From NCBI RefSeq assembly GCF_013626205.1, contig NZ_QHJE01000001.1, positions 2,460,501 through 2,524,500 of the forward strand: a DNA stretch of 64,000 nucleotides, in the 5' to 3' direction. Of the stretch, positions 21,740 to 63,192 are shown piece after piece. A program made the translations under genes and the position numbers. The first letter of the stretch is position 1; every line of letters begins with the position of its first letter. The notes below the pieces were generated by a model that saw only the letters and a program-made list of their open reading frames with translations, was not told the origin of the DNA and ran no database searches. Source of the DNA: Hyphomicrobium methylovorum. Its GTDB lineage: Bacteria > Pseudomonadota > Alphaproteobacteria > Rhizobiales > Hyphomicrobiaceae.

Positions 21740-21903
21740 TTGGCTGAGCGGGCGCGGTTTTAGCGAACAACCATGTTCAGCGTGGACGCTTAGCGATTTT
21801 TTCCAGTTCGTCCAAGTCACCAATGAAGAAAGCGGAGCGCCGATTCAGTAGGCGGTTCGCGGCAGCTAATTCTAAAAACCGCCGCGTATGAGTTCGTGCG
21901 GGC

Positions 21904-42959: not shown

Positions 42960-43361
42960 CCGTAGGTCCTGTTACGATTTGCCGTACGCAATAGTGCGCT
43001 TTAATCACAGGCATTGGGCGATAACAACCCCGCGCTATTGCGAAGATAACTAAGGATAAATACGGATTTGGGGGTCGCGTAATGGGCAGTCTGAACTTCA
43101 GTATTGCCACGCGCCAAAACGGTTCAGCCTCACGGAGCTGACCATTGGGAGCTGAAGGGATTTGGTTTTATTCGTGCTGCGAGACGCTTGCGCGCCGGGT
43201 TTTCTTTGTCGGCGCGGGATCAATATGGCGTCGGCGGTGTTTGCAGCCATTGCTCTTAGAGAGTTGAGCGACGGCATTTATTAGATGCCGTCGCTAATTC
43301 GTGATGCCTGTAGGAATTCAATATCAGCCGCAGACATCCTGCGAATGAGGAGGCGACCCCC
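42960..43361. other. Intergenic region between the two FNR-ferredoxin genes
   Basis: About 400 bases without a supported gene. The spacing suggests that the downstream copy has its own promoter. Confidence 0.4.
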
Positions 43362-44486: not shown

Positions 44487-44561
44487 TCACTTCTCCATTT
44501 GCGGACAGTGACAACTCTGTTGCTACTGTCCGCGTTATCTTAGTTTCCGTGTACGATATGA

Positions 44562-46736: not shown

Positions 46737-47079
46737 ATTGCTCCTCCGATTTTCTTTTCTTCGAAGCGATTTGGCCCCATTTGCGGTGTCTCATCGCTCC
46801 CGCTCGATTATTCATCGAGGTTGATTAGTCGTGTCTGCACTCTAGAATAACACTAAGTTCAGGTCGTCTAAATAACAATTTCTGCAAATTACGGATTGCT
46901 CGCTGTCAACAAGAAGTCATTGAGCGTTATCTCGGCCGGTCCGCATGATTATTTATTTTCTGAATGTATATATATATGCGGAATACGCATGTAATTGTTC
47001 AATTCAGAGGTTGGCGGCGGAGAGATCTCTCTGGCTTATTGGTTGGCAGTTGCGAACTTGCGGTGTCGTTCGATGCTAC
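46737..47079. other. Intergenic region, promoter of the molybdoenzyme gene
   Basis: About 340 AT-rich bases with a TATATATATAT run near 46965-46976. No gene supported. Confidence 0.4.
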
Positions 47080-47415
47080 TCACATAAAGATGCAGCCGCT
47101 GGGAGTAAGCGCGACAGGCAAATTGCCGAGATCGCGGAGCACAGATGCAAGGCGGAAACTCGTCAGCCGCTCGCTAATTTCCTTTTCGGACGTACGCTCC
47201 AGGAAGCTCCGATGCACGCGAACTATGTGGACCTGGCCCAAGGATTTTAGCTGAAGAACGATCTCATCTTCGTTCTCGTGTATGCGGGCGATGTCGAACT
47301 GAGGAAACTCGGTTCGTAAATACGACATTACTTCCGATAGGCCCGCTTCCGGCTGACTATGCTCCATTTCAAGTGGCGCTCGCGTGTCGGCATCAGCAGA
47401 TATGTCAGTGTGCAT
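47080..47415 (-). CDS. Small unknown protein coupled to the Liv operon
   Basis: Not recognised. A 111-residue protein with an acidic N-terminus and a middle part EVMSYLRTEFPQFDIARIHENEDEIVLQL that suggests an alpha/beta mini-domain, ending in PVALTPSGCIFM. It starts 17 bases after livF on the same strand and so is probably the last gene of the transporter operon. Confidence 0.6.
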   Translation of the reverse strand: MHTDISADADTRAPLEMEHSQPEAGLSEVMSYLRTEFPQFDIARIHENEDEIVLQLKSLGQVHIVRVHRSFLERTSEKEISERLTSFRLASVLRDLGNLPVALTPSGCIFM

Positions 47416-47432
47416 CTGTAGATTTGACTGCT

Positions 47433-48212
47433 CTATGCCGTTGCCGATGGTCCGACGTGAGTATCGTGGCCCAGATAGAATGCCTTGATATCGTCGCGCT
47501 GACGGAGCTCGGCCGTTTTCCCATTGAGAGCTACTTTGCCGTTTTCCAGAACGTAAGCTCGGTCGGCGTATCGCAATGCAATGTTTGAGTTTTGCTCTGC
47601 TACGAGTAGCGAGAGGTTCTCATTCTTGTTCAGAGATTTCAGGAGTTTGAAGATTTCTTCGACGATGATTGGCGCGAGTCCCATTGAGGGTTCGTCGAGG
47701 ATGAGCAGCTTCGGTTTCGCCATCAATGCACGGCCGATCGCCGTCATCTGCTGTTCGCCGCCGGACGTCAGTCCTGCCAGGTTGTTACGTAGAGCGCTCA
47801 GTTTTGGAAATGCAGCATAGATGCGATCGAGATCCCTGCTCAGTTCGCTGCGGCTGATCCGCCGCGAGAGGGCTCCCGTCAGCAAGTTTTCTTCCACAGT
47901 CAGCGCTGGGAAGCAGTGGCGGCCTTCAAGCACCTGAACCAAACCTCTTTCGACGAGGTCAGCCGCCGTGAGATCTTTCGTCGATTTGCCTTCAAACAGA
48001 ATGTCGCCGCGTTCGATTTTACCGCGTTCTGCAGCAAGCAGATTAGAGGCAGCCATCAATGTGGTTGTTTTGCCAGCGCCGTTGGCGCCCAGGAGAGCAA
48101 CGATTTCACCGGGCTCTACCGACAGGCTCACGCCGCGTAGGGCGATGATCCCGAGGTTATAGACGGCCTCGATCTGGTCGATCTTTAGGATAGCTGTTTG
48201 TGTCATCTTCAT
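47433..48212 (-). CDS. livF: Liv-type ABC transporter ATP-binding protein
   Basis: A 259-residue ATPase with Walker A (GANGAGKTT), signature (LTSGGEQQ), Walker B (LLILDEPSMGLAP) and switch His/Gln region (LLVAEQN). The short LivF form without the insertion of LivG. Starts at 48206 or 48212 are both possible. It is separated from the substrate-binding protein gene by a strong stem-loop and followed by a small unknown gene. Confidence 0.9.
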   Translation of the reverse strand: MKMTQTAILKIDQIEAVYNLGIIALRGVSLSVEPGEIVALLGANGAGKTTTLMAASNLLAAERGKIERGDILFEGKSTKDLTAADLVERGLVQVLEGRHCFPALTVEENLLTGALSRRISRSELSRDLDRIYAAFPKLSALRNNLAGLTSGGEQQMTAIGRALMAKPKLLILDEPSMGLAPIIVEEIFKLLKSLNKNENLSLLVAEQNSNIALRYADRAYVLENGKVALNGKTAELRQRDDIKAFYLGHDTHVGPSATA

Positions 48213-48231
48213 CTTCAGCGTGCTTGCCCCG

Positions 48232-48262
48232 TCTGGCAGTGCCGAAGACCGGCACTGCCAGA
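48232..48262 (-). other. Intergenic stem-loop between substrate-binding protein and livF genes
   Basis: TCTGGCAGTGCCG at 48232-48244 and CGGCACTGCCAGA at 48250-48262 form a perfect 13-bp stem with a five-base loop. No T tract follows on the minus strand, so it is more likely an RNA-stabilising or processing element that raises the level of the upstream binding-protein message, as known for other ABC operons, than a full terminator. Confidence 0.6.
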
Positions 48263-48285
48263 TATTTGGGAACAGGGCTTCTAGC

Positions 48286-49638
48286 TTATTTCTGTGCGGT
48301 TTCTTCTTCAGCGCAATTCCGCGGAGTTATACCCTTCTCCTTGGCATATGCGGCTGAAGCATTTTCGATGATAGGACGAAGCATTGCCCAGTCCGGCTTG
48401 ATCCAGTCTGTGACCGGCTCATACTTCGTGCCATCCCACTTCTGGAAGATGAGCAAGCCATTTCCTTCGTGGTTTTCGCACGTCACGTTGATGGAGTGGA
48501 ACAAGCCCTTTGCACCAACCTTATCGACAGCGGCCTCATCAAGATTGAGATGTTCGAGGCCCCAGCGGAATTCATCGCCGGTCAGCATTTTGTTGCCGAA
48601 CTTCTTCTGTGCGACGCGCATTGCTTCGACAGTCAACATGCCGTTCACAATGCCAAGGTTGTGATAGACGCTGCCGATGCGTGATTTATCGGCGAGATCG
48701 CCCTTGTTCGCACCATAGACAGTTTTGATAATGTCCTGGAGGATCGGCGAAGACGTGCCAGACGTCTGGGTCGTAACAGCAGTGTATCCGATACCTGCAT
48801 CGCCGGCGGGCTTCACGTCTTCTTCCGAGTTCGACCAGATGTTGCCGACGATCTTATCGATCGGATATCCGGTGCGGCGTGCCGTCTTGAGCGCCACGGG
48901 ATTCATAATTCCCCAACCGCGGAGGATGATGAAGTCCGGCTTGTAGCGCTTGATTTCGAGCCACTGAGATCCTTGTTCGGCGCCCGGATGAGGGACTTCG
49001 ATGTCCTTCACTTCAAAGCCGTACTTTTCACCCAGCTGCTTCAAGAGAGGGGTCGTCTCTTTGCCATAGGGAGAGCCGTGGAAAAGGATGACGATCTTTT
49101 TCCCTTTGAGGTTCTCCATGCCGCCAAACTTGGATCCAATGTACTGGACGATGGCGGATGTTTCGCTGCCCGAGTTCGTGAGAAGCGGGAACAGGTATTT
49201 GAAGACGCGTCCGTCTGATGATTCAGTACGACCATGGTTGATTGTCGTAAGCGGAACCTGGTCAGCGGTGATCTTATCGGTCATCGCGTAGGAGATGCCG
49301 ACGCTGAGAGGAGTCCAGACGCCCGGAGGAGGATTGTGATCCTTCATTCTCTGGTAGCACTCGACGCCCTTCTCGACTTCGTAACCCGTTTCGCATTCGC
49401 TCCACGTCAGCTTGACGCCGTTGACGCCGCCGTCGCGCATATTGATCAGGTTCATATAGTCGATCATGCCACCGAAGAAGCCTGTGCCGCCGGCGGCGTA
49501 GGGGCCCTGTCGATAAACCTGTAGCGGGAAGTACTGTTCCTCAGCGGATGATGGTGTGGCACCAAGTGAAAATGCAATCAGTGATCCGAGTGCCAGGCTC
49601 TTCAGATAGCCTCGCCCCATTCCGAATGATTTAGTCAT
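48286..49638 (-). CDS. Periplasmic substrate-binding protein of a Liv-type ABC importer
   Basis: A 450-residue type I periplasmic binding protein with a signal peptide (LALGSLIAFSLGATPSSAE). Fold markers are GGVNGVKLTWSECETGYEVEKGVECYQRM, VILFHGSPYGKE and the hinge region. It is longer than LivJ/LivK (about 370), which points to a non-amino-acid ligand; homologues of this size serve amides, urea or aromatic acids. Here a C1-sulfur ligand is conceivable by neighbourhood only. Confidence 0.8.
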   Translation of the reverse strand: MTKSFGMGRGYLKSLALGSLIAFSLGATPSSAEEQYFPLQVYRQGPYAAGGTGFFGGMIDYMNLINMRDGGVNGVKLTWSECETGYEVEKGVECYQRMKDHNPPPGVWTPLSVGISYAMTDKITADQVPLTTINHGRTESSDGRVFKYLFPLLTNSGSETSAIVQYIGSKFGGMENLKGKKIVILFHGSPYGKETTPLLKQLGEKYGFEVKDIEVPHPGAEQGSQWLEIKRYKPDFIILRGWGIMNPVALKTARRTGYPIDKIVGNIWSNSEEDVKPAGDAGIGYTAVTTQTSGTSSPILQDIIKTVYGANKGDLADKSRIGSVYHNLGIVNGMLTVEAMRVAQKKFGNKMLTGDEFRWGLEHLNLDEAAVDKVGAKGLFHSINVTCENHEGNGLLIFQKWDGTKYEPVTDWIKPDWAMLRPIIENASAAYAKEKGITPRNCAEEETAQK

Positions 49639-49739
49639 ATTGGCCGTTTCCTTCTGATACGCTTGTTTGTTTTTATCAGTTTGGCTTGTTTTTATTTTCC
49701 GTTTGCCGTGTGGAAACTACGAGTAAATCGCTGCTAGTC

Positions 49740-50819
49740 TTAGGTGTTTCCGATTGTCTGTAAGTCGCTTGTTTTCTCCTTATCGTTTTTGTTGGCGCCA
49801 GTTATTTTGCGCCACATCCGGTCGATCAGCGCAGACAATCCATCGGGCTCAAAAATGAGAACGAGAATGATCAGGGCGCCGATAATGATTTTCTGGCAGT
49901 TCTCAAGAATGCCGGCGTTTAGATCGGCAAACAGATAGCCGCCTACTCGCGAAAGCAGCAGTGGGAATGCCACCATGAATGCTGCACCAAGATACGATCC
50001 ACGAATGGTCGCCAGACCGCCAATGATGATGCAGAAGAGCACGCTGAAAGAGCGATTGAGATCGAAGCCGCCGTATCCAGCCTGGATCGTTCCCAGATAG
50101 GTGAACGCCCAGAGCACGCCCGAAATGCCGATGATGAACGAGCTGATCGCAAATACGAGGAGCTTGGTTTTCAGGACCGGAACACCAATCACTTTTGCGG
50201 CGAGTTCATTGTCGCGTATGGCGATGAAGTTGAGACCTGCCTGCGTCCGCACAAGACGTGCAACGAAGATGGTCAGCAGGGCGACAATGGTCAGAGCGAC
50301 GAAATACTTGCCCTGGATTGTCTGGACGACATACCCAAATATCGAGATCGGCGGCGCATCGATAACGCCGGACGGGCTGTAGTTTGTGACCCATGGGAAG
50401 TTCGTTGCCCATTGGACAAAGAACTGAGCAGCAAGAGTCGAAATGGCCAGATAGAAGCCGCGCAGCCGGAATGCCGGCAGGCAGAATATGAGACCGATTG
50501 CTGCCGCAAAGAGGCCCGCCAGAATAAAGCTGACGACCATCGTGATATCAGGCACGCGCAGCGTCAGATTATACGCTGCGAATGCGCCGATCGCCATGAA
50601 GGCAGCGCTGGCAAGTGAGACTTGGCCAGCATAGCCCGTAAGCAGGTTGAGCCCCAGTGCTGCGAGACCTAACGCAAGTGTTGGCGCTAGGATCGCGTTG
50701 AACAGATATTCCGATCCGATCAACGGTGGGATTGTGTACGCCGCAGCGAGGATGAATAGAACGCCGGGCGTAATCAGGCTGTTCGTCGCTCTAGACGATG
50801 ATGAAGATGCGCTGGTCAC
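49740..50819 (-). CDS. livM: Liv-type ABC transporter permease LivM
   Basis: About 359 residues with nine or so TM helices and the LivM motif (ALGLNLLTGYAGQVSLASAAFMAIGAFAA-type). GTG 50819 lies two bases after the livH stop and is the natural start; an upstream ATG at 50906 would lie inside livH. The C-terminal tail is charged (KITGANKNDKEKTSDLQ). Confidence 0.88.
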   Translation of the reverse strand: MTSASSSSSRATNSLITPGVLFILAAAYTIPPLIGSEYLFNAILAPTLALGLAALGLNLLTGYAGQVSLASAAFMAIGAFAAYNLTLRVPDITMVVSFILAGLFAAAIGLIFCLPAFRLRGFYLAISTLAAQFFVQWATNFPWVTNYSPSGVIDAPPISIFGYVVQTIQGKYFVALTIVALLTIFVARLVRTQAGLNFIAIRDNELAAKVIGVPVLKTKLLVFAISSFIIGISGVLWAFTYLGTIQAGYGGFDLNRSFSVLFCIIIGGLATIRGSYLGAAFMVAFPLLLSRVGGYLFADLNAGILENCQKIIIGALIILVLIFEPDGLSALIDRMWRKITGANKNDKEKTSDLQTIGNT

Positions 50820-50821
50820 AA

Positions 50822-51712
50822 TCAGACCCTTTCGACGAGACGTTGACCGAACAAGCCGGTGGGGCGAACGAGCAGGAAGATCAGTGCGGCCACATATGCG
50901 AACCACCCTTGGATACCGCCGCCCAGGAACGGGCCGATGTAGACTTCCGAAAGCTTCTCAGCAGCGCCGATGATAAGGCCGCCGACAATCGCTCCGGCAA
51001 TCGAGTCAAAGCCACCCAACACCAGAACCGGGAGTGCCTTCAGAACCACGAGCGAGAGTGAGAACTGAACACCAATGCGGGCGCCCCACAGGAGACCTGC
51101 AACGAGTGCAACAAGACCCGATGCCGCCCAGACAGCAGCCCAGATGCGCGGCAAACGTAGACCGACGGACAAGGAAGCCAGCTGGTCTTGTGCGACTGCT
51201 CGGAATGCCAAGCCCATACGTGTGTAGCGGAAGAAGAACGTGAGAAGTCCAACCATGGCTGCAGCAACAAGAGCAGCGACCAGATCGAATGTGCTGATGA
51301 ACACGCCGCCAACTTCGATCGGCACGTCGTCAATGCCAAGATCGAGGCTGTGAACCTGCGTGCCCCAAATGATCTGAGCAGCTCCTTCGATGATGTAGGA
51401 GAGGCCGAGCGTCGCCATGAAGAGCGTCATCGGCGTCTGGGCAACCAACGGCCGCAGGACGACGCGTTCGATGAGAATTCCCAGCAACACCATGATCGCA
51501 AGCGTAATCACGAACGCGGCCCACATGGGCACGCCGAGTTCGTTCAGACACACGAACGTCAAGGCTGCAAAAAGGAGCTGCGAACCTTGTGCGAAATTGA
51601 ATACGCCAGACGTCTTGTAAATCAGCACGAAGCCCAGTGCGACGAGCGAGTACATGATCCCCGACAGTAAGCCACTGATGAGGACCTCTAGAAAAAATTG
51701 AAACTCTGCCAT
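50822..51712 (-). CDS. livH: Liv-type ABC transporter permease LivH
   Basis: A 296-residue inner-membrane permease with the family segments SGIMYSLVALGFVLIYKTSG and VLGGFDSIAGAIVGGLIIG. It starts 13 bases after livG and is followed directly by livM. Confidence 0.9.
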   Translation of the reverse strand: MAEFQFFLEVLISGLLSGIMYSLVALGFVLIYKTSGVFNFAQGSQLLFAALTFVCLNELGVPMWAAFVITLAIMVLLGILIERVVLRPLVAQTPMTLFMATLGLSYIIEGAAQIIWGTQVHSLDLGIDDVPIEVGGVFISTFDLVAALVAAAMVGLLTFFFRYTRMGLAFRAVAQDQLASLSVGLRLPRIWAAVWAASGLVALVAGLLWGARIGVQFSLSLVVLKALPVLVLGGFDSIAGAIVGGLIIGAAEKLSEVYIGPFLGGGIQGWFAYVAALIFLLVRPTGLFGQRLVERV

Positions 51713-51725
51713 TTAAATGTGCCTC

Positions 51726-52697
51726 TCACTCATCAGCTTCGTGCGGCACGCCTAAGTAGGCGTCGACAACAGCTGGGTCGTTCATAACTTGCGATGGCGT
51801 TCCGTCGGCAATCTTGCGTCCGTAATCGAGAACGCTGACGTAATCCGACAATCCCATAACGACGCCGATGTCGTGCTCAATGAGAACGACCGTCGTTCCG
51901 TATCGACTGCACGCGTCGCGAATAAACTGGGTCATTTCTATTTTTTCAGTGCCGGTCATGCCCGCCATCGGCTCGTCGAGCAGGAGGAGGCGGGGTTCGA
52001 TGACCAGAGCGCGAGCCAGTTCAACGCGCTTCTGCATGCCGTAGGACAGCGACGCGGCGAGGCGATCGCGTACAGATGTCAGATGCATGTGCTCGAGAGC
52101 TTTTTCGACCCGGGCTTCAGTGATCTCGCGTTCCTGACGCGCGCGCTTCGAGCCGAAAATTTGCTGGAACGTATTAGATTTTACAGCAGAGACGCGCCCG
52201 ATTGCGATGTTGTCAAAGACGCTCAGGCCTTTGAAGAGGGCGATGTTCTGGAATGTTCGTGAAACGCCGAGATGGGATAGACGTTCGGTTGGGACGCGGG
52301 AGAAGGAGTTGCCGACGAGGCTGATAACTCCCTTGTTGGGTTTGTAAATGCCGCTGATGACGTTGATCAGAGAGCTTTTGCCCGCGCCGTTGGGGCCAAT
52401 GATTGCCCGGATTTCGCCAGGCTTTACTGTGAGTGAAACATCAGTAAGCGCCTTGATGCCCCCAAAGGCGAGGCTAACGTCTTCGAGGGCTAGGACTGGT
52501 GTTGTGGTGTCTGCGTTGGCGCGAGTAGTTGTCTCCATTGAATTCTTGATTGATACAACCTTTGTGCTCGTTGCGGCATCGCGGTGTTGAGATGTCATTG
52601 GTGAGGCTGTTCCAACACTCATTGGCGCTGTCATTTTGGTTTTCTTGTCCCTAGATTTAGCAGTCGATCGTTGTACGAACTGTACTCGATCGAGCAT
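51726..52697 (-). CDS. livG: Liv-type ABC transporter ATP-binding protein LivG
   Basis: ATPase with Walker A (GPNGAGKSS), signature (LSYGMQKRVELARAL), Walker B (LLLLDEPMAGM) and switch (VVLIEHD). From the first ATG the protein has an unusual Thr/Ser/Lys-rich N-terminal extension of about 65 residues before the ABC domain. In-frame ATGs at 52634, 52622, 52598 and 52538 would give a more usual LivG length; no start has a strong ribosome site. First gene of the transporter operon. Confidence 0.88.
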   Translation of the reverse strand: MLDRVQFVQRSTAKSRDKKTKMTAPMSVGTASPMTSQHRDAATSTKVVSIKNSMETTTRANADTTTPVLALEDVSLAFGGIKALTDVSLTVKPGEIRAIIGPNGAGKSSLINVISGIYKPNKGVISLVGNSFSRVPTERLSHLGVSRTFQNIALFKGLSVFDNIAIGRVSAVKSNTFQQIFGSKRARQEREITEARVEKALEHMHLTSVRDRLAASLSYGMQKRVELARALVIEPRLLLLDEPMAGMTGTEKIEMTQFIRDACSRYGTTVVLIEHDIGVVMGLSDYVSVLDYGRKIADGTPSQVMNDPAVVDAYLGVPHEADE

Positions 52698-54167: not shown

Positions 54168-55334
54168 TTAATCCGCGAGTAGCGGAACGCCAAGCAGGGA
54201 TTTTCCGATCCACGTTTTCAAGAGTTCGGTGGTCGGCGCCATAAGGTGGATCGCGCGAACATCGCGCAAGTGCTTCGAGAGTTTCGACCCTTGCGAGTAA
54301 CCGCGGCCACCGGTGAGCGTCATGGCTTCGTCAACGATGGCGACGGCGCTCTCGGCGACTTCGACTTTACTCGCCATGATCTGCAGAAGTGCGTCGGGGC
54401 TGCCGTTATCGAAGCTGGCTGCCGCGCCGTATACGAGCTGGCGCGCTCGCTCGAGCATGCACCAGAGAGCTCCGATGCGATGTTGGACGATTGGTGCTTG
54501 CGATAACGATCCCGCATGCATGTGGCGGCGTGAAGCCACGTGGTCTCGCGCTTCATCGATCGCGCTTGCAGCAACACCGAGATAGGTGCCAGCCATTGCG
54601 ATGATGAATAGGGGAGTGATTACATTGAAAATGTACCACATCTGATCGCCTTCGCGACCGAGAAGATTTGCGCGCGGAATACGAGCATTTCGCAATATCA
54701 TCGTGCGCGAGGAATTCCCGCGCATGCCCACGCCATTCCAAACTCCTCCCCAGCTCAATCCCTCGGTTGTGCCGGGAACAACGACGCAGGAAAATTGAGC
54801 GGTGGCGTCTTCTTTTTCGCCGGAGACAGCGGAGACAACGTAAGAATCCGCGTGGCTGCCGTTTGTTACAAAAACCTTCTCTCCGGTGAGGCTATAGTAG
54901 TCAGCGGAATGATTGGTGAGCGTCGTTTGGGGGAGGTAATAGTAGCTCCCGGTTCCGGTCTCGCTCAGCGAAAGAGTTGTGATGTGTTTGCCTTCGCATA
55001 TCGGCGTTAGCAACGCCTCGCGTTGGGCATCCGTGGCGTTCGCCGCGATGACGTAAGATCCGACGCAATGCATGCCATAGCAGATGCCGGTGGAGGCGCA
55101 TTCTCTGCTCAACTGCTCGCAAACACGCGCAAGCATTTGCAGGCCTTGGCCCTTGCCGCCGTAAGGTCGGGGGACCACAAGGCCGCCCAGTCCGGCATCA
55201 AGAAGTGCCGTCATGCCTTTTCTGGGCCAAATTGCTTCGCTATCGACTTGGGCAGAATTGGCGGCAAGTACGCTTTTGGCAATCTCTTCGACGTTCTTGA
55301 GAATTGCTAAGGAGCCACCGTCCCAAAAATTCAT
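54168..55334 (-). CDS. DszC/MsuC-like flavin monooxygenase (acyl-CoA dehydrogenase fold), copy B
   Basis: A 388-residue paralogue of the product at 15677-16843, very similar over its whole length. It has the FAD-binding LSLSETGTG and GEKVFVTNGS segments, and MAPTTELLKTWIG at the C-terminus where acyl-CoA dehydrogenases carry the catalytic Glu; here it is Ala. This favours a class D flavin monooxygenase acting on an organosulfur substrate, as DszC, SfnC and MsuC do, but isovaleryl-type dehydrogenases also lack that Glu and hold it elsewhere. It is third in a minus-strand set with Nif11 and the small unknown protein. The azoreductase-like gene upstream could be a flavin reductant source. Confidence 0.8.
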   Translation of the reverse strand: MNFWDGGSLAILKNVEEIAKSVLAANSAQVDSEAIWPRKGMTALLDAGLGGLVVPRPYGGKGQGLQMLARVCEQLSRECASTGICYGMHCVGSYVIAANATDAQREALLTPICEGKHITTLSLSETGTGSYYYLPQTTLTNHSADYYSLTGEKVFVTNGSHADSYVVSAVSGEKEDATAQFSCVVVPGTTEGLSWGGVWNGVGMRGNSSRTMILRNARIPRANLLGREGDQMWYIFNVITPLFIIAMAGTYLGVAASAIDEARDHVASRRHMHAGSLSQAPIVQHRIGALWCMLERARQLVYGAAASFDNGSPDALLQIMASKVEVAESAVAIVDEAMTLTGGRGYSQGSKLSKHLRDVRAIHLMAPTTELLKTWIGKSLLGVPLLAD

Positions 55335-55422
55335 AAATTAGACTCTTCTGAATTCCAAATATGAGGGAGAGGCAAATGCCTCCCCCGTATTGATCGTGAA
55401 AAAAGTCGGCTGGAATGCCTTG

Positions 55423-55725
55423 TCAGTGATGCTCGACAAGGGAAAATGCCAGCACCTTATCAACCGGCTCGATGCGGTTTGCGCCAGCGCCGACTAGGCA
55501 AGACCCGGCTTTATCAACGCACCACAGCGGGTATGCGCGGAAGTTCTGCAGGTCAGCGGGGATCTGATCGCGATGAGGAATATCGCGAGGAGAGACTTTT
55601 TCTCTGCTCTTCTCATCAGCAAGCTGTTTGCGGATGCGGGTGAGTTCCTGCATCAGTTCAGTTGCGGAAGCGCCGTTCCAGGTTCCGACGGCACGTCCTT
55701 CAGTCGTTTTAATTTCGTCGCTCAT
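55423..55725 (-). CDS. Small unknown protein of the Nif11 - DszC-like module
   Basis: Not recognised. A 100-residue soluble protein: EGRAVGTWNGASATELMQELTRIRKQ, a charged linker, then PHRDQIPADLQNFRAYPLWCVDKAGSCLVGAGANRIEPVDKV. It has two Cys in the last third. It lies 11 bases after the Nif11 gene and 88 bases before the DszC-like gene. A frameshifted relative occupies the same slot at 16967-17240, which supports it as a real gene of this module. Confidence 0.7.
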   Translation of the reverse strand: MSDEIKTTEGRAVGTWNGASATELMQELTRIRKQLADEKSREKVSPRDIPHRDQIPADLQNFRAYPLWCVDKAGSCLVGAGANRIEPVDKVLAFSLVEHH

Positions 55726-55736
55726 TTCATCACACC

Positions 55737-56015
55737 TTAAAAGCGATCCATGACCATGCGGAGAATCTTCTTCGGAAGAACGTAGTCCTTTCCGTGCTTC
55801 TGCTCTTGAACAGCAATCAAGAGATCGTCCCTGGTAAAGCTGATGTTCTGTTCCCGCGCCATTTCGCAGTAGACGTTTATGAAAGCTTCTTTTGTTGGCG
55901 TGGCTTCGAGACGATCCAGTAGGGCCGGATCCTTCATCACGAGATCACCGAGCTTTCTCATTTCTTTTTCAAACGGACGCGATTCCGCGTCGCGCTGCAG
56001 TGCTTTTTCCAACAT
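55737..56015 (-). CDS. Nif11-domain small protein, copy B
   Basis: About 92 residues from ATG 56015, which has GGAAG upstream; the frame itself opens at 56060. The Nif11-like part is DPALLDRLEATPTKEAF...ISFTRDDLLIAVQEQ. As in copy A there is no leader cleavage site or peptide core, so it is a stand-alone Nif11 protein rather than a RiPP precursor. It heads the module Nif11 - small protein - DszC-like. Confidence 0.78.
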   Translation of the reverse strand: MLEKALQRDAESRPFEKEMRKLGDLVMKDPALLDRLEATPTKEAFINVYCEMAREQNISFTRDDLLIAVQEQKHGKDYVLPKKILRMVMDRF

Positions 56016-56238
56016 TGTTTTTTTCTTCCGTTTGCTGTGTCGCTGGCAAGAACTCACCACTCCGACGGAGGATTAAAAGTCCTCTGATGAGGTGAGGCTT
56101 GAGGTAAGTAATCGAGCCATTTTAATGCCTGCCAGCGGAGTAGATGAATAGGTAAAATCTACCTAGTTTGTGCAGTGCACGTCGCTATGCGTTTCCGCAA
56201 AACCCACCTGCTAACCGGTAGAAATTTACCCATTTCTC

Positions 56239-56868
56239 TTAACCTGCGTTGGCCAACGCCTTCGCCTCGTTGATGCCGGCAGCAAGCGACGCCGTAAGCG
56301 CTTCTTCTCCGAAGAGGGTCTTTTCAACGCGAATGGTTTGAATGTCGGAGATGCCGATGAAGTTCAGCCAGGAGAGGAGGAAGGCCTTTTGATAGTCGAG
56401 GTTTTCCTCTGAGATCGGCGTTCCCTCGACGTACTCGAGACCGCGCGCGGCGACGACGACTGCGCGCTTACCTTTGAGCATGCCGCCGAAGCCGTTTTCG
56501 TCGAAGGTAAATGTCACGTTTTTCTGCGTAACCAGATCAATCAAGTGCTTCATCTGATACGGGACACCGAAATTCCACATCGGTGTGGCGATCACGATCT
56601 GATCTGCATTTTGGAAACGGGCGCCAAGCGCTTCAATTGCTTTCCATGCGGTTTGCTGATCTGCGCTCAACGGCTGCCCAGCAAGACCTGCGTATTTTGC
56701 TTCGAGTGCGTGGCCGTCAAATGGCGGCAAATTCGCATTCCAAACATCGAGTTCGTCGACCGTTACGGAACCCTTGGATTTTAGTGCGTCTATATAGGCT
56801 TCTGCCACGCGGGCCGATGCCGAAGACGTGCCTCTTGGTGAGGCCTTTATGAAGAGAACCCGCGTCAT
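56239..56868 (-). CDS. azoR: FMN-dependent NADH-azoreductase (AzoR family)
   Basis: A flavodoxin-fold quinone/azo reductase of about 209 residues. The FMN phosphate loop is KASPRGTSSASARV, the second FMN segment is TPMWNFGVPYQMKHLID, and the third is VVAARGLEYVEG. ATG 56868 follows GGGAG. AzoR enzymes reduce quinones and azo dyes with NADH; reduced FMN release to a partner monooxygenase is possible but not shown. It is divergent from the AlkB-like operon. Confidence 0.87.
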   Translation of the reverse strand: MTRVLFIKASPRGTSSASARVAEAYIDALKSKGSVTVDELDVWNANLPPFDGHALEAKYAGLAGQPLSADQQTAWKAIEALGARFQNADQIVIATPMWNFGVPYQMKHLIDLVTQKNVTFTFDENGFGGMLKGKRAVVVAARGLEYVEGTPISEENLDYQKAFLLSWLNFIGISDIQTIRVEKTLFGEEALTASLAAGINEAKALANAG

Positions 56869-57256
56869 CTCGCTCCCAATCTCGTTATTGGTGATGTCTA
56901 TACGGGCACACCAAAACACATCGGGCAGGGGCAGGGGAGACCGTGCAAATACCTAACCATGCGTAATCTGCCGGGTGGTTTATTCACCCCAGCCAGATGT
57001 ATGGAGCAAAGGGGCCTCGATGCGTCACGACTCAATTATCGTCGCGATGACTTCGAGGGTTCAGACTGCTGACTTGGATTGCACTTCAATAGAGTTCTCG
57101 GGTCGCTTCTCTACTGAGGTTCTGCGCGTGCGGAGTGGGCTTCGCTGTTATTGCGACGGGGAGTCGAGATTGTACACGTAGTTCAACTGCGCTGGCTTGC
57201 GTAATCTCACGGATAGATTCGTGAAGTCATAGAGATAAAATGCGGTAAATCGAATT

Positions 57257-57287
57257 CTCTATTTATTCAGAGTGTGAATAAATAGAG
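57257..57287. promoter_or_regulatory. Perfect inverted repeat upstream of the AlkB-like operon
   Basis: CTCTATTTATTC at 57257-57268 and GAATAAATAGAG at 57276-57287 are perfect 12-bp inverted repeats separated by seven bases, about 70 bases before the AlkB-like ATG. The A/T-rich dyad is the kind of site an Irr- or LysR-type protein binds, and the operon itself encodes an Irr-like regulator. It could also form an RNA hairpin. Confidence 0.6.
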
Positions 57288-57354
57288 GCAGTCTAAGCAC
57301 TGCAAAAAATTTCGATTTCAGCCTCTCCGTTGGGGTTCAGGAGGAATAGAAAAA

Positions 57355-58629
57355 ATGAGAAAACTGATACTTGGTCATCTTGTGTATCTATACACGCCGC
57401 TGGGAGTTCTGGCGTGCGTGGTAGGTATCCTACTAGGCGGACATTGGGCCTGGCTCGGTGTTGCAATTTTCGGCTTCAATATCGTCGTCGATACGCTGAC
57501 CTCTGGTCTGCATCTCCGTGGCGCTGCCGCTGATAAGGACGGTTCGCCAGCTGGTATTCCGGCCGTGCTCAACTCCATGATGTACATGCAGTTGATCTCG
57601 TTCATTGCTCTGCAGCTCGCGCTCGCATGGCGTGTTTATCAGTACGTCGCTGGCGTGCCGATCGAAACCATGACCTGGAACGGTTATGAGTTCACGAACG
57701 GTATTGATCTGATCACCTTGGTTGGCGCCACGCTCAGCGCTGGTATGCACCAGGGCCTCGGCATCATGTTCGGTCACGAACTCGCGCATACCAAGGGCAT
57801 CGGCTTCTTGATCTCGCGCTGGATGATGGCTCTCTCGGGCACGGCGCACTTCTGCTTTGCTCACGTCTATAACCATCACCTCGAACTGGGCCGCGCTTGG
57901 CTTGGTCCGGAGGGCAACAAGATGGATGACGACACGGATCCCGCTACGGCTCCGCGTGGTCGCTCGATCTACAAGCACTTCGTGATTTCGCATATCGGTC
58001 AGTCGTACTTCGGTGTCATCACCGAAGGCAAGCGCCTGAAGCGTATGGGCAAATCGTTCTTCTCGTTGTCTAATCGCTGGATTCGCGGTTACATGATGAG
58101 CCTCCCGACCGTAGCTCTCTTCAGCTACGCAGGATACGCCGGCGGCCAAGGCGCCAGCGGTGTTCTGATCGGTCTCGCTGTCATGCTCGTTGTCTGGATC
58201 ATTTCGAACTTCGAGCTCGAAGCGCTGAACTACATGGAGCACTACGGTCTGATCCGTGTGAAGAACGAGCCCATCGAGTATCGTCACTCGTGGGACAATG
58301 ACACGGCTTTCACGAGCTGGGCGTTCATTGAGATCGGTCGTCAGGCAGATCATCACGATCGTGGCGAAACGCACTTCTGGGAACTCACCGGTGTTGGTGG
58401 TCCTCCGACGGGTGCTCCGAACGCACGCATCGGGTACTACACCGAGTTCACTCTCGCGCTGATCCCGCCGCTCTGGCACTACATCATGCGTCGTAAGCTT
58501 GCTATCTGGGATCGTGACTTCGCGACGCCCGAAGAGCGCAAGATTGCTGCGATGATCAATAAGAAGGTCGGTTACGACCTTGATCCGAAGGCGATCGAAG
58601 GTCGCTACCTTGAAGTCAGCTACGTCTGA
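57355..58629 (+). CDS. AlkB/XylM-like membrane di-iron monooxygenase
   Basis: A 424-residue integral membrane protein of the fatty acid desaturase/alkane hydroxylase superfamily. Histidine boxes: HELAH at 141-145, HVYNHH at 170-175, NYMEHYG at 292-298, and ADHH at 331-334 with H340. AlkB and XylM have LQRHxDHH in the last box; here the first His is replaced (IGRQADHH, Gln330), and the second box is AHVYNHH rather than EHxxGHH. TM pairs lie around 8-45, 72-97, 118-139 and 245-285. AGGAGG precedes the ATG. It is first in a four-gene operon with truncated globin, a ferredoxin-FAD reductase and an Irr-like regulator, 3 to 6 kb from mtoX. Substrate unknown; a hydrophobic C1-sulfur compound such as dimethyl sulfide is an inference. 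Confidence 0.82.
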   Translation: MRKLILGHLVYLYTPLGVLACVVGILLGGHWAWLGVAIFGFNIVVDTLTSGLHLRGAAADKDGSPAGIPAVLNSMMYMQLISFIALQLALAWRVYQYVAGVPIETMTWNGYEFTNGIDLITLVGATLSAGMHQGLGIMFGHELAHTKGIGFLISRWMMALSGTAHFCFAHVYNHHLELGRAWLGPEGNKMDDDTDPATAPRGRSIYKHFVISHIGQSYFGVITEGKRLKRMGKSFFSLSNRWIRGYMMSLPTVALFSYAGYAGGQGASGVLIGLAVMLVVWIISNFELEALNYMEHYGLIRVKNEPIEYRHSWDNDTAFTSWAFIEIGRQADHHDRGETHFWELTGVGGPPTGAPNARIGYYTEFTLALIPPLWHYIMRRKLAIWDRDFATPEERKIAAMINKKVGYDLDPKAIEGRYLEVSYV

Positions 58630-58662
58630 TTGTGGGTAATCCCCTTTCAAAATAGATGAATG

Positions 58663-58690
58663 ACGCGATCCACTTCAATGTGGATCGCGT
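58663..58690 (+). other. Intercistronic hairpin before the truncated globin gene
   Basis: ACGCGATCCAC at 58663-58673 and GTGGATCGCGT at 58680-58690 form a perfect 11-bp stem with a six-base loop. The stem ends four bases before the ribosome site AGGAGG (58695-58700). It may stabilise the upstream AlkB-like message or affect globin translation. Confidence 0.6.
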
Positions 58691-58709
58691 TTCCAGGAGG
58701 TCGGAAACC

Positions 58710-59102
58710 ATGAGTATGGAAGCTGTCGCGGAATCGGTTGCTCCCGATGCAACTCTTTATGAGCGGTTGGGCAAACGAGCCGGAATTGAGAAGATCGTCG
58801 AGCAGATTTGGATCAATCACACGACCAATCCCGAAGTTAAGAATCGATACGTCAATAGCGATCCAGTCAACGTGAAGCGACTGGTTACGGAAATGTGCTG
58901 TGCTGGTTTTGGCGGCCCGGAATCTTATTCCGGCAGAGATATGATCACCACCCACACCGGCATGAATATCAACGAAACTGAATTCGTTGCTGTTTGCGAC
59001 GACGTGCTGGATGCGCTGGATAAGAACGGCGTAGGCAAGCGCGAGAAAGATGAAGTCCTCTGCATCCTCTATTCACTGAAGCCCGAAGTCGTTCGCCTCT
59101 AA
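58710..59102 (+). CDS. Group 1 truncated hemoglobin
   Basis: A 130-residue globin. LYERLGKRAGIEKIVEQIW starts the 2/2 fold, and the proximal His is H82 in GRDMITTHTGMNI. ATG 58710 has AGGAGG nine bases upstream. Group 1 globins bind oxygen, NO or sulfide. Its place between a di-iron oxygenase and its reductase suggests oxygen delivery to, or protection of, the oxygenase. Similar roles are proposed for other globins near oxygenases; none is proven here. Confidence 0.85.
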   Translation: MSMEAVAESVAPDATLYERLGKRAGIEKIVEQIWINHTTNPEVKNRYVNSDPVNVKRLVTEMCCAGFGGPESYSGRDMITTHTGMNINETEFVAVCDDVLDALDKNGVGKREKDEVLCILYSLKPEVVRL

Positions 59103-59145
59103 TCGCTCCAAGAGCGATAGCATTCACACCGAAGAGACATTCTTG

Positions 59146-60225
59146 ATGTTCAGCTTTTTCAAGCAAAATAAAGGCCCGTTTACTGCAAAGATTTCCCCTC
59201 TGGGAAAGAGCATTACCGTGAAGAGTGGGTCTTCGGAAAACCTGCTTAAAGCTGCACTCGAGAATGGAATCCAGTGGCCGTACAACTGTCGGGTTGGAAG
59301 TTGCGGCAGCTGCAAATGTAAACTGGTGAGCGGCAAGATAAAGCCGCTCGCCGACTTCAGCTACGTGCTGACGGGCGACGAACTCAAGCAAGGTTACATC
59401 CTCGCCTGTCAGACGTCCCTCAAGGGCGATATCGAGGTCGAAGTTCAGCTCGAAGATACCGCCGGAGTTGAGCTCGCGAAAGCTCGGACGCTCAACGGCA
59501 AGATTTCGAATACCAAGCAATTGACCCATGATATTCTCGAAGTTCAAGTGGAACTCGATGGGCAATTCCAAGACTATTTGCCTGGGCAATATGCGGACAT
59601 TCTCGTTCCAGGTATTGTCGACCGTGCCCGCTCTTATTCATTTTCGCAATCACCAGCGAATGAAAAACCGAATCAGGTCAGCTTCTTCATTCGCAAGGTG
59701 AAGAACGGACAGTTTACCGAATGGCTGCATGGCGACAATCACGTCGGCCACCCAATCGTCCTCGATGGACCTCACGGTAATTTTTACCTTCGTAAGCCTG
59801 AAGGACCGATCGTTCTTATCGCCGGCGGTAGCGGCCTGGCACCGATGAGAGCGCTGATGCAGCAGATTACAGCTGAGGGTGTGAAGTCGCCCGTGACGCT
59901 GATCTTTGGCGCCCGTACGCAGCAGGATCTCTATTGCTCCGAAGAGATTGCCGAATTCAGCTCAGCCATGAATGGCAACTTCAAATACATTCCGGTTCTC
60001 TCAGTCGAGAAGAACGGCGAAGGATGGCAAGGCGCCGTCGGTAATTGCCCGGACGCAATTACTCCTGAAATGATCGATGGAAAAAGCAGTCACGCTTACC
60101 TCTGCGGGCCGCCGCTTATGATCGATGCTGCGATTGATCGCTTGAAAGCGATGGGTCTCGAGGAAAATAGAATCTACTTCGATAAGTTCCTTGATGCGTC
60201 GTCTATGCCTGCGGGACGCGGCTAG
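59146..60225 (+). CDS. Oxygenase reductase: [2Fe-2S] ferredoxin-FAD-NAD(P)H
   Basis: A 359-residue reductase like XylA, MmoC or BenC. The plant-type 2Fe-2S site is C48, C53, C56, C88 (YNCRVGSCGSCKCKL). It is followed by an FAD domain (RARSYSF) and an NAD(P)H domain (LIAGGSGLAPMRALMQ, YLCGPPLMID). It comes 43 bases after the globin gene and should pass NAD(P)H electrons to the AlkB-like monooxygenase. The preferred start is ATG 59146. Confidence 0.92.
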   Translation: MFSFFKQNKGPFTAKISPLGKSITVKSGSSENLLKAALENGIQWPYNCRVGSCGSCKCKLVSGKIKPLADFSYVLTGDELKQGYILACQTSLKGDIEVEVQLEDTAGVELAKARTLNGKISNTKQLTHDILEVQVELDGQFQDYLPGQYADILVPGIVDRARSYSFSQSPANEKPNQVSFFIRKVKNGQFTEWLHGDNHVGHPIVLDGPHGNFYLRKPEGPIVLIAGGSGLAPMRALMQQITAEGVKSPVTLIFGARTQQDLYCSEEIAEFSSAMNGNFKYIPVLSVEKNGEGWQGAVGNCPDAITPEMIDGKSSHAYLCGPPLMIDAAIDRLKAMGLEENRIYFDKFLDASSMPAGRG

Positions 60226-60275
60226 TTTGCCAGTGGACCGTAACGAACAGCTTCAGATTTAGGGATGTCATAGGT

Positions 60276-60761
60276 ATGAGCCTTCCGAGAACTGCTGAGC
60301 ACGAACTTACTTTTACGGCTGCTCCGTGCGGGCGTTGCGATCTCTGCAGCGGATCGTGCGCAACTCGTGAAATCGGGACGATGCTTGTTCAGGCTGGGTT
60401 GCGTCCCACGCGTCAGCGTCTCGAGCTCGGGCGGCTTCTCTTTCAGAATGGTGATCGCCACGTCACGGCAGATTCTCTGCATGACGACGCTAAGAAGCAC
60501 GGCGTTAAAGTTTCTCTCGCGACGATCTACAACACTCTGCAGCAGTTCACGAGCGCCGGTATGCTGCGTCGCCTAGCTATCGACGGTCAGAAGACCTGGT
60601 ACGACACGAACATGTCGGAGCATCATCATTTCTTCTGCGAAGACGATAACTGCGTTCTGGATATCGATAGCACTCATCTGGCTCTGAACCAGATGCCGGA
60701 AGTTCCGCCTGGAATGGAAATCGCCAGAGTGGAAGTCATCGTTCGTTTGCGGCGTTGCTAA
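60276..60761 (+). CDS. Irr/Fur-family regulator with N-terminal Cys cluster, copy B
   Basis: A 161-residue Irr-like protein. The winged helix is intact (RPTRQRLELGRLL, ATIYNTLQQF), with WYDTNMSEHHHFFC at 108-121 in the sensor domain. Unlike Bradyrhizobium Irr it has a Cys cluster C18-x2-C21-x2-C24-x3-C28 at the N-terminus, plus C121, C126 and a C-terminal Cys. The cluster might bind zinc, iron-sulfur or haem. It ends the AlkB-like operon and probably regulates it through the dyad at 57257. Confidence 0.85.
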   Translation: MSLPRTAEHELTFTAAPCGRCDLCSGSCATREIGTMLVQAGLRPTRQRLELGRLLFQNGDRHVTADSLHDDAKKHGVKVSLATIYNTLQQFTSAGMLRRLAIDGQKTWYDTNMSEHHHFFCEDDNCVLDIDSTHLALNQMPEVPPGMEIARVEVIVRLRRC

Positions 60762-60939
60762 TTTCAGCTTCGTCTTAGATCGCGAAGATCTGCTTCGACA
60801 ACGCATGATTGGGTGCCTCCAAGATTGCTCTCACGGCCTCGCTGGTGTTGGCCGCGATCTTGACTGAAAGGCGAAGCCGCCAGCGAACTTTATATCCGCG
60901 CCGACCCATTCTTTGATCTGCTCAAGCTTGGCGACGTCG

Positions 60940-60977
60940 CAAAAAAATAGAGAGACCCGAAGGTCTCTCTTTTTTTG
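60940..60977. terminator. Bidirectional Rho-independent terminator
   Basis: AGAGAGACC and GGTCTCTCT (60949-60970) form a 9-bp stem with loop CGAA, with an A run before and seven T after. It separates the AlkB-like operon from the convergent rhodanese gene and works in both directions. Confidence 0.88.
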
Positions 60978-61012
60978 TGCCCATTTTTTTTTTGCCGCGA
61001 GGCGACAATCGC

Positions 61013-61930
61013 TCAGCGTGGGATGGTCGATTGGGCGTCATGCCCATGCTTTGTCCATGCGAGCATCGAGCCATCGTAAAGTGACGCGGACTTGTAGCCC
61101 AACAGTTCGTGGATCACGAACCATGAAATGGAAGCGACGTGTCCGGTGTTGCAATACGTGATGACCGGCTGATTGGGATTGAAGCCGACAGAAGTCATCG
61201 CGGCGGCGAGCTGATCTTTGTTTCGGAACGTCAGATCGGGATTCAAGTTTGCGTTGAACGGGAAGGATGCTGCGCCAGGGATGTGCCCGAACTTCAAAAT
61301 GTTTGGCCGCTTTTCAATCCCGACGAAGAATTCAAAGAGGCGTGCATCGAGCAGTGTTAGGTTTTTACTCTGTAGCGTTTGCTCGACAGCAGGTGTGCCG
61401 GTGACAAGTTCCGTTCGTTCCGGACGTACAACGAAATTTCCAGGTTGAACTTCATCGTCATCGCCCCAGACTTCACGACTCTCTGCGATCCACTTCGTCG
61501 TTCCGCCGTCGAGTATGGCGACGTTGTCATGCCCATAACGCTTGAGCTGCCAGTAGAGGTATGTCGCGAGGCCGACATCATCCGGTCCTCTGCTTCTATG
61601 CGTGAGAACTATAGGTTGATCGACGGAGACGCCTGCTTTTCTCATGACGTCTTGAAAGGCTTCAGGGCTTACGCTCATTCCATCGACGGGGACGCCAGCT
61701 TCTGGCATCACGCCGCGCAAATTTTTGTAATCGACGCGCACGGATCCGATGATGTGGCCACCTTCCTTAAAGCTGGTGGGGTCATTGCGGACATCGAGAA
61801 CGCGCACAGAATCCTGATTGCGAGCTAGCCATTCTGTCGTGACGAGAGGGCCGGGCAGATCCAGCGCAAATGCGCCAGCCGGGTACGACAGCGCTGCCAT
61901 AGCGAGTGCGATGGTAAAGGATCGCGCCAC
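61013..61930 (-). CDS. Periplasmic double-rhodanese sulfurtransferase
   Basis: About 305 residues from GTG 61930, which has AGGAGG seven bases upstream, beginning with a signal peptide (ARSFTIALAMAALSYPAGA). Two rhodanese domains: the N-terminal one has THRSRGPDD and lacks the Cys; the C-terminal one has the active Cys in ITYCNTGHVASIS. This is the thiosulfate sulfurtransferase (TST/SseA-like) layout. In the periplasm it could move sulfane sulfur from thiosulfate or from sulfide oxidation products. It ends at the shared terminator. Confidence 0.85.
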   Translation of the reverse strand: MARSFTIALAMAALSYPAGAFALDLPGPLVTTEWLARNQDSVRVLDVRNDPTSFKEGGHIIGSVRVDYKNLRGVMPEAGVPVDGMSVSPEAFQDVMRKAGVSVDQPIVLTHRSRGPDDVGLATYLYWQLKRYGHDNVAILDGGTTKWIAESREVWGDDDEVQPGNFVVRPERTELVTGTPAVEQTLQSKNLTLLDARLFEFFVGIEKRPNILKFGHIPGAASFPFNANLNPDLTFRNKDQLAAAMTSVGFNPNQPVITYCNTGHVASISWFVIHELLGYKSASLYDGSMLAWTKHGHDAQSTIPR

Positions 61931-62211
61931 TTCTAATCCTCCTTGATGTTTTTGTGATTGGTTTCTAAGCCGACGGTCATGTCGGATCGTGTGTCGTGTA
62001 TTGCAATGACGACAGTACTGCGATGTGCAGCGTTCGCGCTTCAAATTCTGATGATGAGCGTTACGACGCGCCGCGTACGGATGAGATGAGTATGATAGCG
62101 TTTAGCGCGTAAATACTGGGATTTTTGAGCTTTCACGCGTGCAAGGTGTCTCAATCCGCGAACGAAAATGTCGCGGAGGATGTATGCAGCTTACTGTCGT
62201 GAAGTGCCCGA

Positions 62212-63150
62212 TTATACGACCCAGTCGAGCGCGGAATCTTCTTCGTTCGTCGGCAGGACCAACGGATTTAGATTGTTCCAGATGTCCGAGAAGATATCGG
62301 GCGGCACTGTGTTCGGTTTGCCAAGCGCGAAGTAATCGATCATCACCGGCTTGCCGTTGTTCTTGATCGGAATTGCACCCGAAGCGTTGGTGTCGAACGA
62401 CACTTTTGACGCGGGGAGGATCGCGCAGCCGAGCCCAAGGGACGCCCACTCTTCAATAACGGAGTAGCTGCTTGCCTCACCGGCATAACGCTTGATCGTT
62501 AGGTTCTCGGTTTCGAAAATGCGCTTTATGACGTGCGTTAGACCGCAAATGTTAGGGACGAAGACGAAGGTTTCGTCGGCGATGTCGCTAACGCTGACCT
62601 CGCTGCGATTGTGCCAACGTGCCTTTTCGGATTTCTTCGGCAGGAACATCAAAGGTTCGCTGCACAGAAGCTGGTAAATGCAATCTGCCGGCTGCGCGTC
62701 GATGCTATCGAGCGGCGACAGGATCAAATCGAGCTCTGCGCGTCTCAACGCGTCGGACAGATCCTGCAGATTGCCTTCACGGTAAATTACATTTACGTCA
62801 GGTCGAATTTTTCGGAATGCTTCGAGCGCATCTTCAGCTTGGCGAATGCCGACCACAGGCGATACGCCGACCTGCAAAGTGCAGGGTTTCTGAGTTTTTT
62901 GCTTTGCAAGCTCTTTAATTTTCTCGAAGGCGTTAAGCGTTTCGAGCACCGCTGGCAGTAGTCGTTCGCCTGCAGGTGTTAGGGAAAGGCTTCGCGTTGT
63001 TCGGCGAAAAATGCGTTGACCAAGCTCTGCTTCGAGCTGCGCAATGCCGTTGGATAACGTTGGCTGAGTCACTGCGCAGCTTCCGGCCGCAGCAACAAAC
63101 GATCCCTCTTCGACGAGCGCTCTAAAGTATCTCAGCTGCTGTAGGTTCAC
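62212..63150 (-). CDS. LysR-family regulator, copy B (probable mtoX regulator)
   Basis: About 312 residues from GTG 63150 (MNLQQLRYFRAL). The helix-turn-helix reads AVTQPTLSNGIAQLE. The effector domain shares RYAGEASSYSVIEEWASLG and CAILPASK with the paralogue at 21904. It is divergent from mtoX across a 227-base region with dyads at 63193-63220, the usual arrangement of an LTTR and its target. Confidence 0.88.
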   Translation of the reverse strand: MNLQQLRYFRALVEEGSFVAAAGSCAVTQPTLSNGIAQLEAELGQRIFRRTTRSLSLTPAGERLLPAVLETLNAFEKIKELAKQKTQKPCTLQVGVSPVVGIRQAEDALEAFRKIRPDVNVIYREGNLQDLSDALRRAELDLILSPLDSIDAQPADCIYQLLCSEPLMFLPKKSEKARWHNRSEVSVSDIADETFVFVPNICGLTHVIKRIFETENLTIKRYAGEASSYSVIEEWASLGLGCAILPASKVSFDTNASGAIPIKNNGKPVMIDYFALGKPNTVPPDIFSDIWNNLNPLVLPTNEEDSALDWVV

Positions 63151-63192
63151 GACATGCCCTAGGGTAGCAAAAACCAACCGATTTTCTAATAT

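Follow-up and report, generated by a model that had tools for sequence, protein, structure and literature searches.

A membrane di-iron monooxygenase operon near mtoX in Hyphomicrobium methylovorum, a candidate for dimethyl sulfide oxidation

Hyphomicrobium methylovorum carries, in a 64,000-nucleotide stretch of contig NZ_QHJE01000001.1 (positions 2,460,501 to 2,524,500; here called the window, whose coordinates are used below), an operon for an AlkB-like membrane oxygenase, a truncated haemoglobin, a reductase and an Irr-type regulator close to mtoX, the gene for methanethiol oxidase. The best-supported reading, to which we assign a probability of roughly 0.62, is that this operon encodes a membrane-bound di-iron dimethyl sulfide (DMS) C-monooxygenase that feeds MtoX. 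Gene content, protein family, predicted fold and co-occurrence and clustering with mtoX were established directly, whereas we infer what the enzyme converts and forms, how electrons reach it and what the globin does. The Fer2-FAD-NAD reductase would relay electrons from NADH to the di-iron centre of the oxygenase, which would hydroxylate one methyl group of DMS (CH3-S-CH3 + O2 + NADH + H+ -> CH3-S-CH2OH + NAD+ + H2O), and the product would decay to formaldehyde, which would enter C1 metabolism, and methanethiol, which would go to periplasmic MtoX. The globin would probably play an accessory part, buffering or scavenging O2 or NO in the vicinity of the oxygenase. DMS is a climate-active gas, and its bacterial breakdown is described as a major sink (PMC6548844; publications are cited throughout for individual passages).

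All four genes lie on the plus strand and are separated by gaps of 80, 43 and 50 bases. The first (57355 to 58629) encodes the 424-amino-acid oxygenase, a candidate DMS C-monooxygenase of the AlkB/XylM superfamily, whose only Pfam match is FA_desaturase (PF00487; 73.6 bits against a curated cut-off of 29.7) and which matches no NCBIfam model. It is followed by a globin (58710 to 59102; Bac_globin, PF01152, 40.1 against 21 bits) that is assigned by sequence family to the group 1 truncated haemoglobins, like its best relatives in the PDB (8ugz, 8uzu and 7tt9), and by an NADH reductase of the XylA/BenC type (59146 to 60225), the presumed electron donor, whose 2Fe-2S (PF00111), FAD (PF00970) and NAD (PF00175) domains all score above their curated cut-offs. 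For the globin and the reductase we place the probable starts slightly 3' of those of the longest open reading frames (ORFs), in the case of the globin just behind an AGGAGG. The last gene (60276 to 60761) encodes a Fur-family regulator with an extra Cys-rich N-terminus that exceeds both relevant NCBIfam cut-offs (NF045678, 201.5 against 150 bits; NF045677, 199.8 against 170) and is classed as Irr by the curated equivalog cut-off. Beyond two minus-strand genes, for a rhodanese and a LysR protein, mtoX starts on the plus strand at 63378, 2.6 kb past the operon, and runs beyond the window end at 64000; the full gene scores 754.6 bits against the NF052453 equivalog cut-off of 650. These coordinates and domain scores agree with an earlier sequence-only reading of the window, which had proposed this four-gene operon and its distance from mtoX. 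Its strong terminator is less clear-cut: a hairpin with a 9-pair stem and a T run does lie behind the operon (60949 to 60970, plus strand), but the region has no more hairpins of this kind (13) than shuffles of it do (mean 14.1), so this one has to be judged by its own strength.

The oxygenase has the histidine motifs HELAH, HVYNHH, NYMEHYG and RQADHH and an AlphaFold model (predicted local distance difference test 82, predicted template modelling score 0.86) with an AlkB-like fold, features that place it in the membrane di-iron hydroxylase superfamily of AlkB, XylM and FA_desaturase. Its PDB relatives at E ≤ 0.001, by sequence and by predicted fold, are AlkB structures only (8f6t and 8sbb; template modelling score 0.66 to 0.71 on the query), with which it shares the motif NYxEHYG at 21 to 24% identity. 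In a 94-row tree, the oxygenase and its relatives form an 86-row clade with support of 99/99 and a long stem, separate from XylM, AlkB and reductase-oxygenase fusions. The motif histidines are conserved across the 86 rows except for the truncated row L100, which has gaps at the first two motifs (L, G and C numbers are our handles for loci, genomes and contigs), and the HYG motif varies, for example to NFMGHYG in 6 rows and to NYMEHFG in 3. We regard the oxygenase as a member of a new family in an established superfamily, and its function as predicted.

Closer identities were tried and rejected. The protein is not AlkB alkane monooxygenase proper, since it sits on a separate branch and is accompanied by a Fer2 reductase in an operon that lacks rubredoxin (the rest of the genome was not searched for one), and it is not XylM xylene monooxygenase, since the two XylM rows branch apart outside the 86-row clade. 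Nor does it belong to the luciferase-type DmoA family (TIGR03860), given that PF00487 is its sole Pfam match and no NCBIfam model matches. DmoA (6ak1) shares with it the proposed conversion of DMS to methanethiol and formaldehyde but is a flavoprotein of a different family. The arrangement of a hydroxylase adjoining a Fer2-FAD-NAD reductase is of the XylMA two-component type, as in XylM/XylA of pWW0, where a membrane di-iron hydroxylase gene is likewise followed by a 2Fe-2S reductase gene; the window's oxygenase is 28% identical to that system's hydroxylase, and its family differs further in its hosts, in neighbouring globin or glutathione S-transferase (GST)-like genes and in the fourth histidine motif, which reads NHINHH in XylM. 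The same pairing of a Fer2-FAD-NAD reductase with an AlkB-type oxygenase recurs as a single fused protein of about 750 residues in Polaromonas pPNAP01 (L156) and in G042 (L020), on the separate branch mentioned above.

A scan of named genomes yielded 134 relatives of the oxygenase, the best 80 of which were examined as loci. We searched for mtoX at E ≤ 1e-60 in the 47 carrier genomes that correspond to 50 of these loci, and found it in 37 of them, among which are 17/17 genomes of the window's own subclade. The background is far lower, with mtoX in 6 of 289 genomes from the class to which the window belongs (a count that includes the window's genome) and in 35 of 369 genomes of the class of Methylophaga sulfidovorans, at least 5 of which are known carriers; the contrast with the latter gives a Fisher p of about 1e-23, a value that ignores shared ancestry. 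Because the Fisher tests share this feature, contrasts within a genus or family weigh more: in Methylophaga, oxygenase and mtoX both occur in the same 2 of 24 genomes (p 0.004), and in the Hyphomicrobiaceae mtoX is present in 4 of 5 carriers versus 7 of 98 non-carriers (p 4e-4). The two genes are also often neighbours. Eight of the 17 genomes in the subclade (L028, L029, L035, L038, L100, L031, L036 and L041) have mtoX on the same contig within 25 kb, and L026 has it at 34 kb; no linkage was seen in the remaining eight. At the marine loci L095 and L105, a single same-strand run comprises the oxygenase, a GST-like protein, the reductase, a small membrane protein, a FadL-like protein, MtoX and SCO1/MauG; at L105, Pfam confirms MtoX, SCO1/MauG and the reductase, and the GST-like and FadL-like proteins, which have no Pfam match, are named through clustering with L088 and its kin. 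The sequence-only reading had itself named homologues lying mostly in genomes without mtoX as an outcome that would speak against a membrane enzyme that demethylates DMS and hands methanethiol to MtoX, and the count of 37 in 47 is the reverse of that.

Association with mtoX also bears on whether the sulfur atom rather than a methyl group is attacked. Membrane hydrocarbon monooxygenases can sulfoxidise thioethers, and the enzyme might accordingly oxygenate DMS to dimethyl sulfoxide (DMSO) for detoxification or electron balance without forming methanethiol. We consider this highly improbable, as DMSO is no feed for MtoX, yet the oxygenase gene travels with mtoX.

Carriers among the best 80 of the 134 relatives include Hyphomicrobium zavarzinii, Thiobacillus thioparus DSM 505, other Thiobacillus metagenome-assembled genomes (MAGs), Parasulfuritortus, Methylobacillus sp. 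MM3, Methylophaga sulfidovorans, Thiothrix, Thiodiazotropha and many marine Gammaproteobacteria as well as SAR86, OCS116 and MED-G09. The gene is rare in the window's own taxonomic groups: it occurs in 5 of 103 Hyphomicrobiaceae genomes (one a fragment at a contig end) and, at E ≤ 1e-40, in 5 of 289 Alphaproteobacteria genomes including that of H. methylovorum (two of the five only 36 to 37% identical). Published DMS users include M. sulfidovorans (PMC6548844) and many isolates of Hyphomicrobium and Thiobacillus (PMC4611497), a statement that does not extend to each carrier strain listed here. Stable-isotope probing of soil and lake DMS degraders with 13C-DMS labelled Methylophilaceae and Thiobacillus, while dmoA was not found in the metagenomes; the first DMS enzyme was given as unknown, and the authors concluded that an alternative one is in use (PMC4611497). 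Both Methylophilaceae and Thiobacillus include carriers of the oxygenase. Several genomes hold multiple copies, for example a pair of one reductase-linked and one unlinked copy in the marine genomes G429 (L053/L103) and G430 (L055/L095). The copy in a Rhizobium sp. MAG (L034; JAIBEL010000073) is nearly identical to that of T. thioparus and reflects either a mis-binned contig or recent transfer.

A bridge to expression data comes from Methylophaga thiooxydans, in which MDMS009_226, annotated as a "fatty acid desaturase", is highly induced on DMS along with mtoX, and where the primary DMS enzyme is described as unknown, with dmoA in none of six Methylophaga genomes (PMC6548844). The genome that we searched (G475) has two mtoX genes. 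The ORF on contig C25 has 467 codons with a Met at 41, which yields 427 plus 40 residues as stated for MDMS009_211, and that on contig C16 has 465 codons like MDMS009_768. C25 also encodes a KDPG (2-keto-3-deoxy-6-phosphogluconate) aldolase, the only one looked at in G475, which would correspond to MDMS009_149 in PMC6548844, and a SulP permease followed by adenosine 5'-phosphosulfate kinase and methylguanine methyltransferase, the markers of mto-cluster 1; C16 encodes a FadL-type protein and a lipoyl-domain protein resembling dihydrolipoamide dehydrogenase, as expected for MDMS009_906 and MDMS009_809. Since C25 takes up tags 149 and 211 and, if we assign the gene pairs of the paper accordingly, also 140, 261, 274 and 284, and C16 takes up 768, 809 and 906, tag 226 belongs to C25. 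G475 has two genes of the FA_desaturase family, the oxygenase as the sole one on C25 and a gene on C9 that by eye resembles an ordinary acyl desaturase. By this contig matching, MDMS009_226 is very probably the orthologue of the window's oxygenase (the G475 copy is 56% identical), and induction of the oxygenase on DMS in M. thiooxydans is very probable. In G475 the oxygenase gene is surrounded by genes for a globin, a GST, the reductase, a second globin and a FadL-type porin, and the mtoX cluster lies at a distance of 7.7 kb. The second truncated globin (L109:298-789), beside the FadL-type porin, has by eye a leader-like N-terminus and is possibly periplasmic.

The same gene has been given a different role in print, namely membrane-lipid upkeep by a desaturase or hydroxylase that would aid repair under stress from MtoX-derived H2O2 (PMC6548844). 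The Pfam name FA_desaturase fits this proposal, and co-occurrence with mtoX would also be expected of a stress response. The AlkB-type HYG motif, the AlkB-like predicted fold and the XylA-type reductase within the operon point away from it, as do the separate C9 gene of G475 and the occurrence of the family in few genomes (5/289, and 2/24 in Methylophaga), unlike a general repair enzyme; we consider it quite improbable.

In Hyphomicrobium denitrificans, strain X of which uses DMS (PMC6067878), the oxygenase falls into a region already connected to DMS. Genome G329 shows the published order tusA, soxR, soxA, soxY (Hden_0698 to Hden_0704; genes named by eye), and counting on from TauE (Hden_0720; Pfam TauE) places the oxygenase at an estimated Hden_0730 to Hden_0735 and mtoX at Hden_0739 to Hden_0743. 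Both lie inside Hden_0719 to Hden_0748, a range described as changing drastically with thiosulfate and as including genes for MtoX and a "putative DMS monooxygenase", with gene and family unnamed in the passage (PMC12423496). A DMS monooxygenase in this region is thus already in print in passing, and what the present analysis adds is the family of the oxygenase, where that family occurs and how it connects to Methylophaga and Thiobacillus. No TIGR03860 match was found at E ≤ 1e-60 in H. denitrificans (G329) or in G340; strong matches occur in the window's genome, in G342 and in G357 (H. zavarzinii).

Several observations weigh against a DMS C-monooxygenase. The window's genome (3.4 Mb in 4 contigs, assembly GCF_013626205.1) encodes a close DmoA orthologue (909 bits to 6ak1; G000:C1:572407-573687, L138) about 1.9 Mb from the operon along the contig and 91% identical to the DmoA copy of G342, so that this organism would have no need of a further DMS monooxygenase; its genome may hold two such enzymes. 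Second, mtoX was not found in 10 of the 47 carrier genomes, including all five tested (L069, L083, L092, L096 and L097) from a nine-row subclade of SAR86, MED-G09, OCS116, Rhodobiaceae and Porticoccaceae records, which have a ferredoxin alone near the oxygenase and in which its function or substrate may differ; since many carriers are MAGs, absence of mtoX is soft evidence. Third, at 48 of the 80 loci the same-strand 4 kb behind the oxygenase gave neither a reductase nor a ferredoxin match, in some cases since the contig ends, and FadL-type porins near some copies hint at a larger hydrophobic substrate. From the literature, DMS degradation is said not to have been shown for any Methylophilaceae member (PMC4611497), M. 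aminisulfidivorans is reported to grow on DMS without mtoX, and DMS monooxygenase activity went undetected in DMS-grown M. thiooxydans (cited in PMC6548844), although the making of extracts could remove a membrane-bound enzyme.

Some of these points suit a different substrate, a small hydrophobic sulfur or C1 molecule from which methanethiol arises or with which it occurs, such as dimethyl disulfide, other methyl sulfides or carbon disulfide, with DMS as a side substrate at most. The DmoA orthologue in the window's genome, a DmoA-like gene in H. zavarzinii and the FadL-type porins are consistent with this possibility, as are Thiobacillus MAGs that by their record names come from thiocyanate reactors. 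We still think it unlikely in view of the very probable DMS induction in M. thiooxydans and the use of DMS by H. denitrificans without a DmoA-family match. The sequence-only reading was correct, if incomplete, in placing dmoA outside the window: the orthologue elsewhere in the H. methylovorum genome rules out that the genome lacks the gene. Its proposed demethylase is strengthened by mtoX in most carriers and by the very probable induction on DMS, and it is tempered by the dmoA gene and a substrate known by inference.

We lean towards a broader view of the DMS C-monooxygenase, in which a new membrane di-iron family unrelated to DmoA, linked to MtoX and frequently paired with a globin or GST-like protein of its own, would be the missing first DMS enzyme in Methylophaga, Thiobacillus, Methylophilaceae, H. 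denitrificans and a broad range of marine sulfur-oxidising Gammaproteobacteria. On sequence grounds, it is a strong candidate for this step in several bacterial groups. If this is true, a membrane iron enzyme would explain why no induced methyltransferase turned up, and the oxygenase gene would provide an added marker for DMS consumption. For DMS oxidation, the passages in PMC8262859 and PMC8520302 name only dmoA/DmoAB, dso, Tmm and Ddh, and that in a 2026 review lists only DmoA, DdhA, DsoB and Tmm as consumption enzymes (PMC13360808). The literature that we searched, in which most subscription journals were outside reach so that earlier naming is possible, names no AlkB-type enzyme for DMS.

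Among the 80 loci, a reductase or 2Fe-2S ferredoxin lies downstream of the oxygenase in 32 (the ferredoxin-only status of L042 being an effect of a contig end), and a globin is present in 23, always with a reductase or ferredoxin, and in 17/17 of the window's subclade. As the order of oxygenase, globin and reductase recurs in other genera at these 23 loci, it is not due to chance; the globin as an obligatory partner was rejected on the same count, and it might supply oxygen, as the sequence-only reading suggested. Irr matches beside the operon are confined to Hyphomicrobiaceae loci. In this family, the block CGTARTCTCACGSATRGA (57200 to 57217, plus strand), about 140 bases before the oxygenase, is found upstream of the gene as an exact match in 5/5 carrier genomes examined. 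A perfect 13-base inverted repeat at 57257 to 57287, 67 bases upstream of the oxygenase, was rejected as an operator since it is absent upstream of 14 relatives checked.

Genes that recur near the oxygenase in relatives include a kinase/regulator pair, an acyl-CoA-dehydrogenase-like protein and a MetX-like hydrolase. In the window, the acyl-CoA-dehydrogenase-like flavoprotein is encoded at 54168 to 55334 on the minus strand (with a paralogue at 15677 to 16927), and its relatives occur in 19 of the 80 loci and in M. thiooxydans. This conservation, together with a superfamily that includes DszC-type monooxygenases (a weak match), would fit an attack on DMS by the flavoprotein with the membrane oxygenase as an accessory, and the unnamed "putative DMS monooxygenase" could be the flavoprotein gene (PMC12423496). 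We give such a division of labour very little credence, since L095 and L105, where oxygenase, reductase and mtoX form one run, have no match to the flavoprotein, and since the families that the flavoprotein matches best are those of dehydrogenases, with scores that fall short of the cut-offs. A response regulator and a PAS-type histidine kinase (12509 to 15611, minus strand) may regulate the operon, judging from the pair found within 10 kb of the operon at L014, L015 and L016. At these same three loci, a peroxiredoxin gene lies immediately upstream of the oxygenase, and the window has a second Irr-type regulator directly after a peroxiredoxin gene (18153 to 19495). The oxygenase-neighbour genes of relatives (kinase, regulator, acyl-CoA-dehydrogenase-like, peroxiredoxin, Irr, MetX-like and LysR) are here split, and partly duplicated, between 12509 to 22914 and 54168 to 63177, two blocks about 31 kb apart. 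The other genes that fill this gap include, at 41775 to 52697, a molybdoenzyme of the DMSO-reductase family (below all cut-offs), two FAD/NAD reductases with 4Fe-4S domains and, by eye, an ABC transporter of the branched-chain type.

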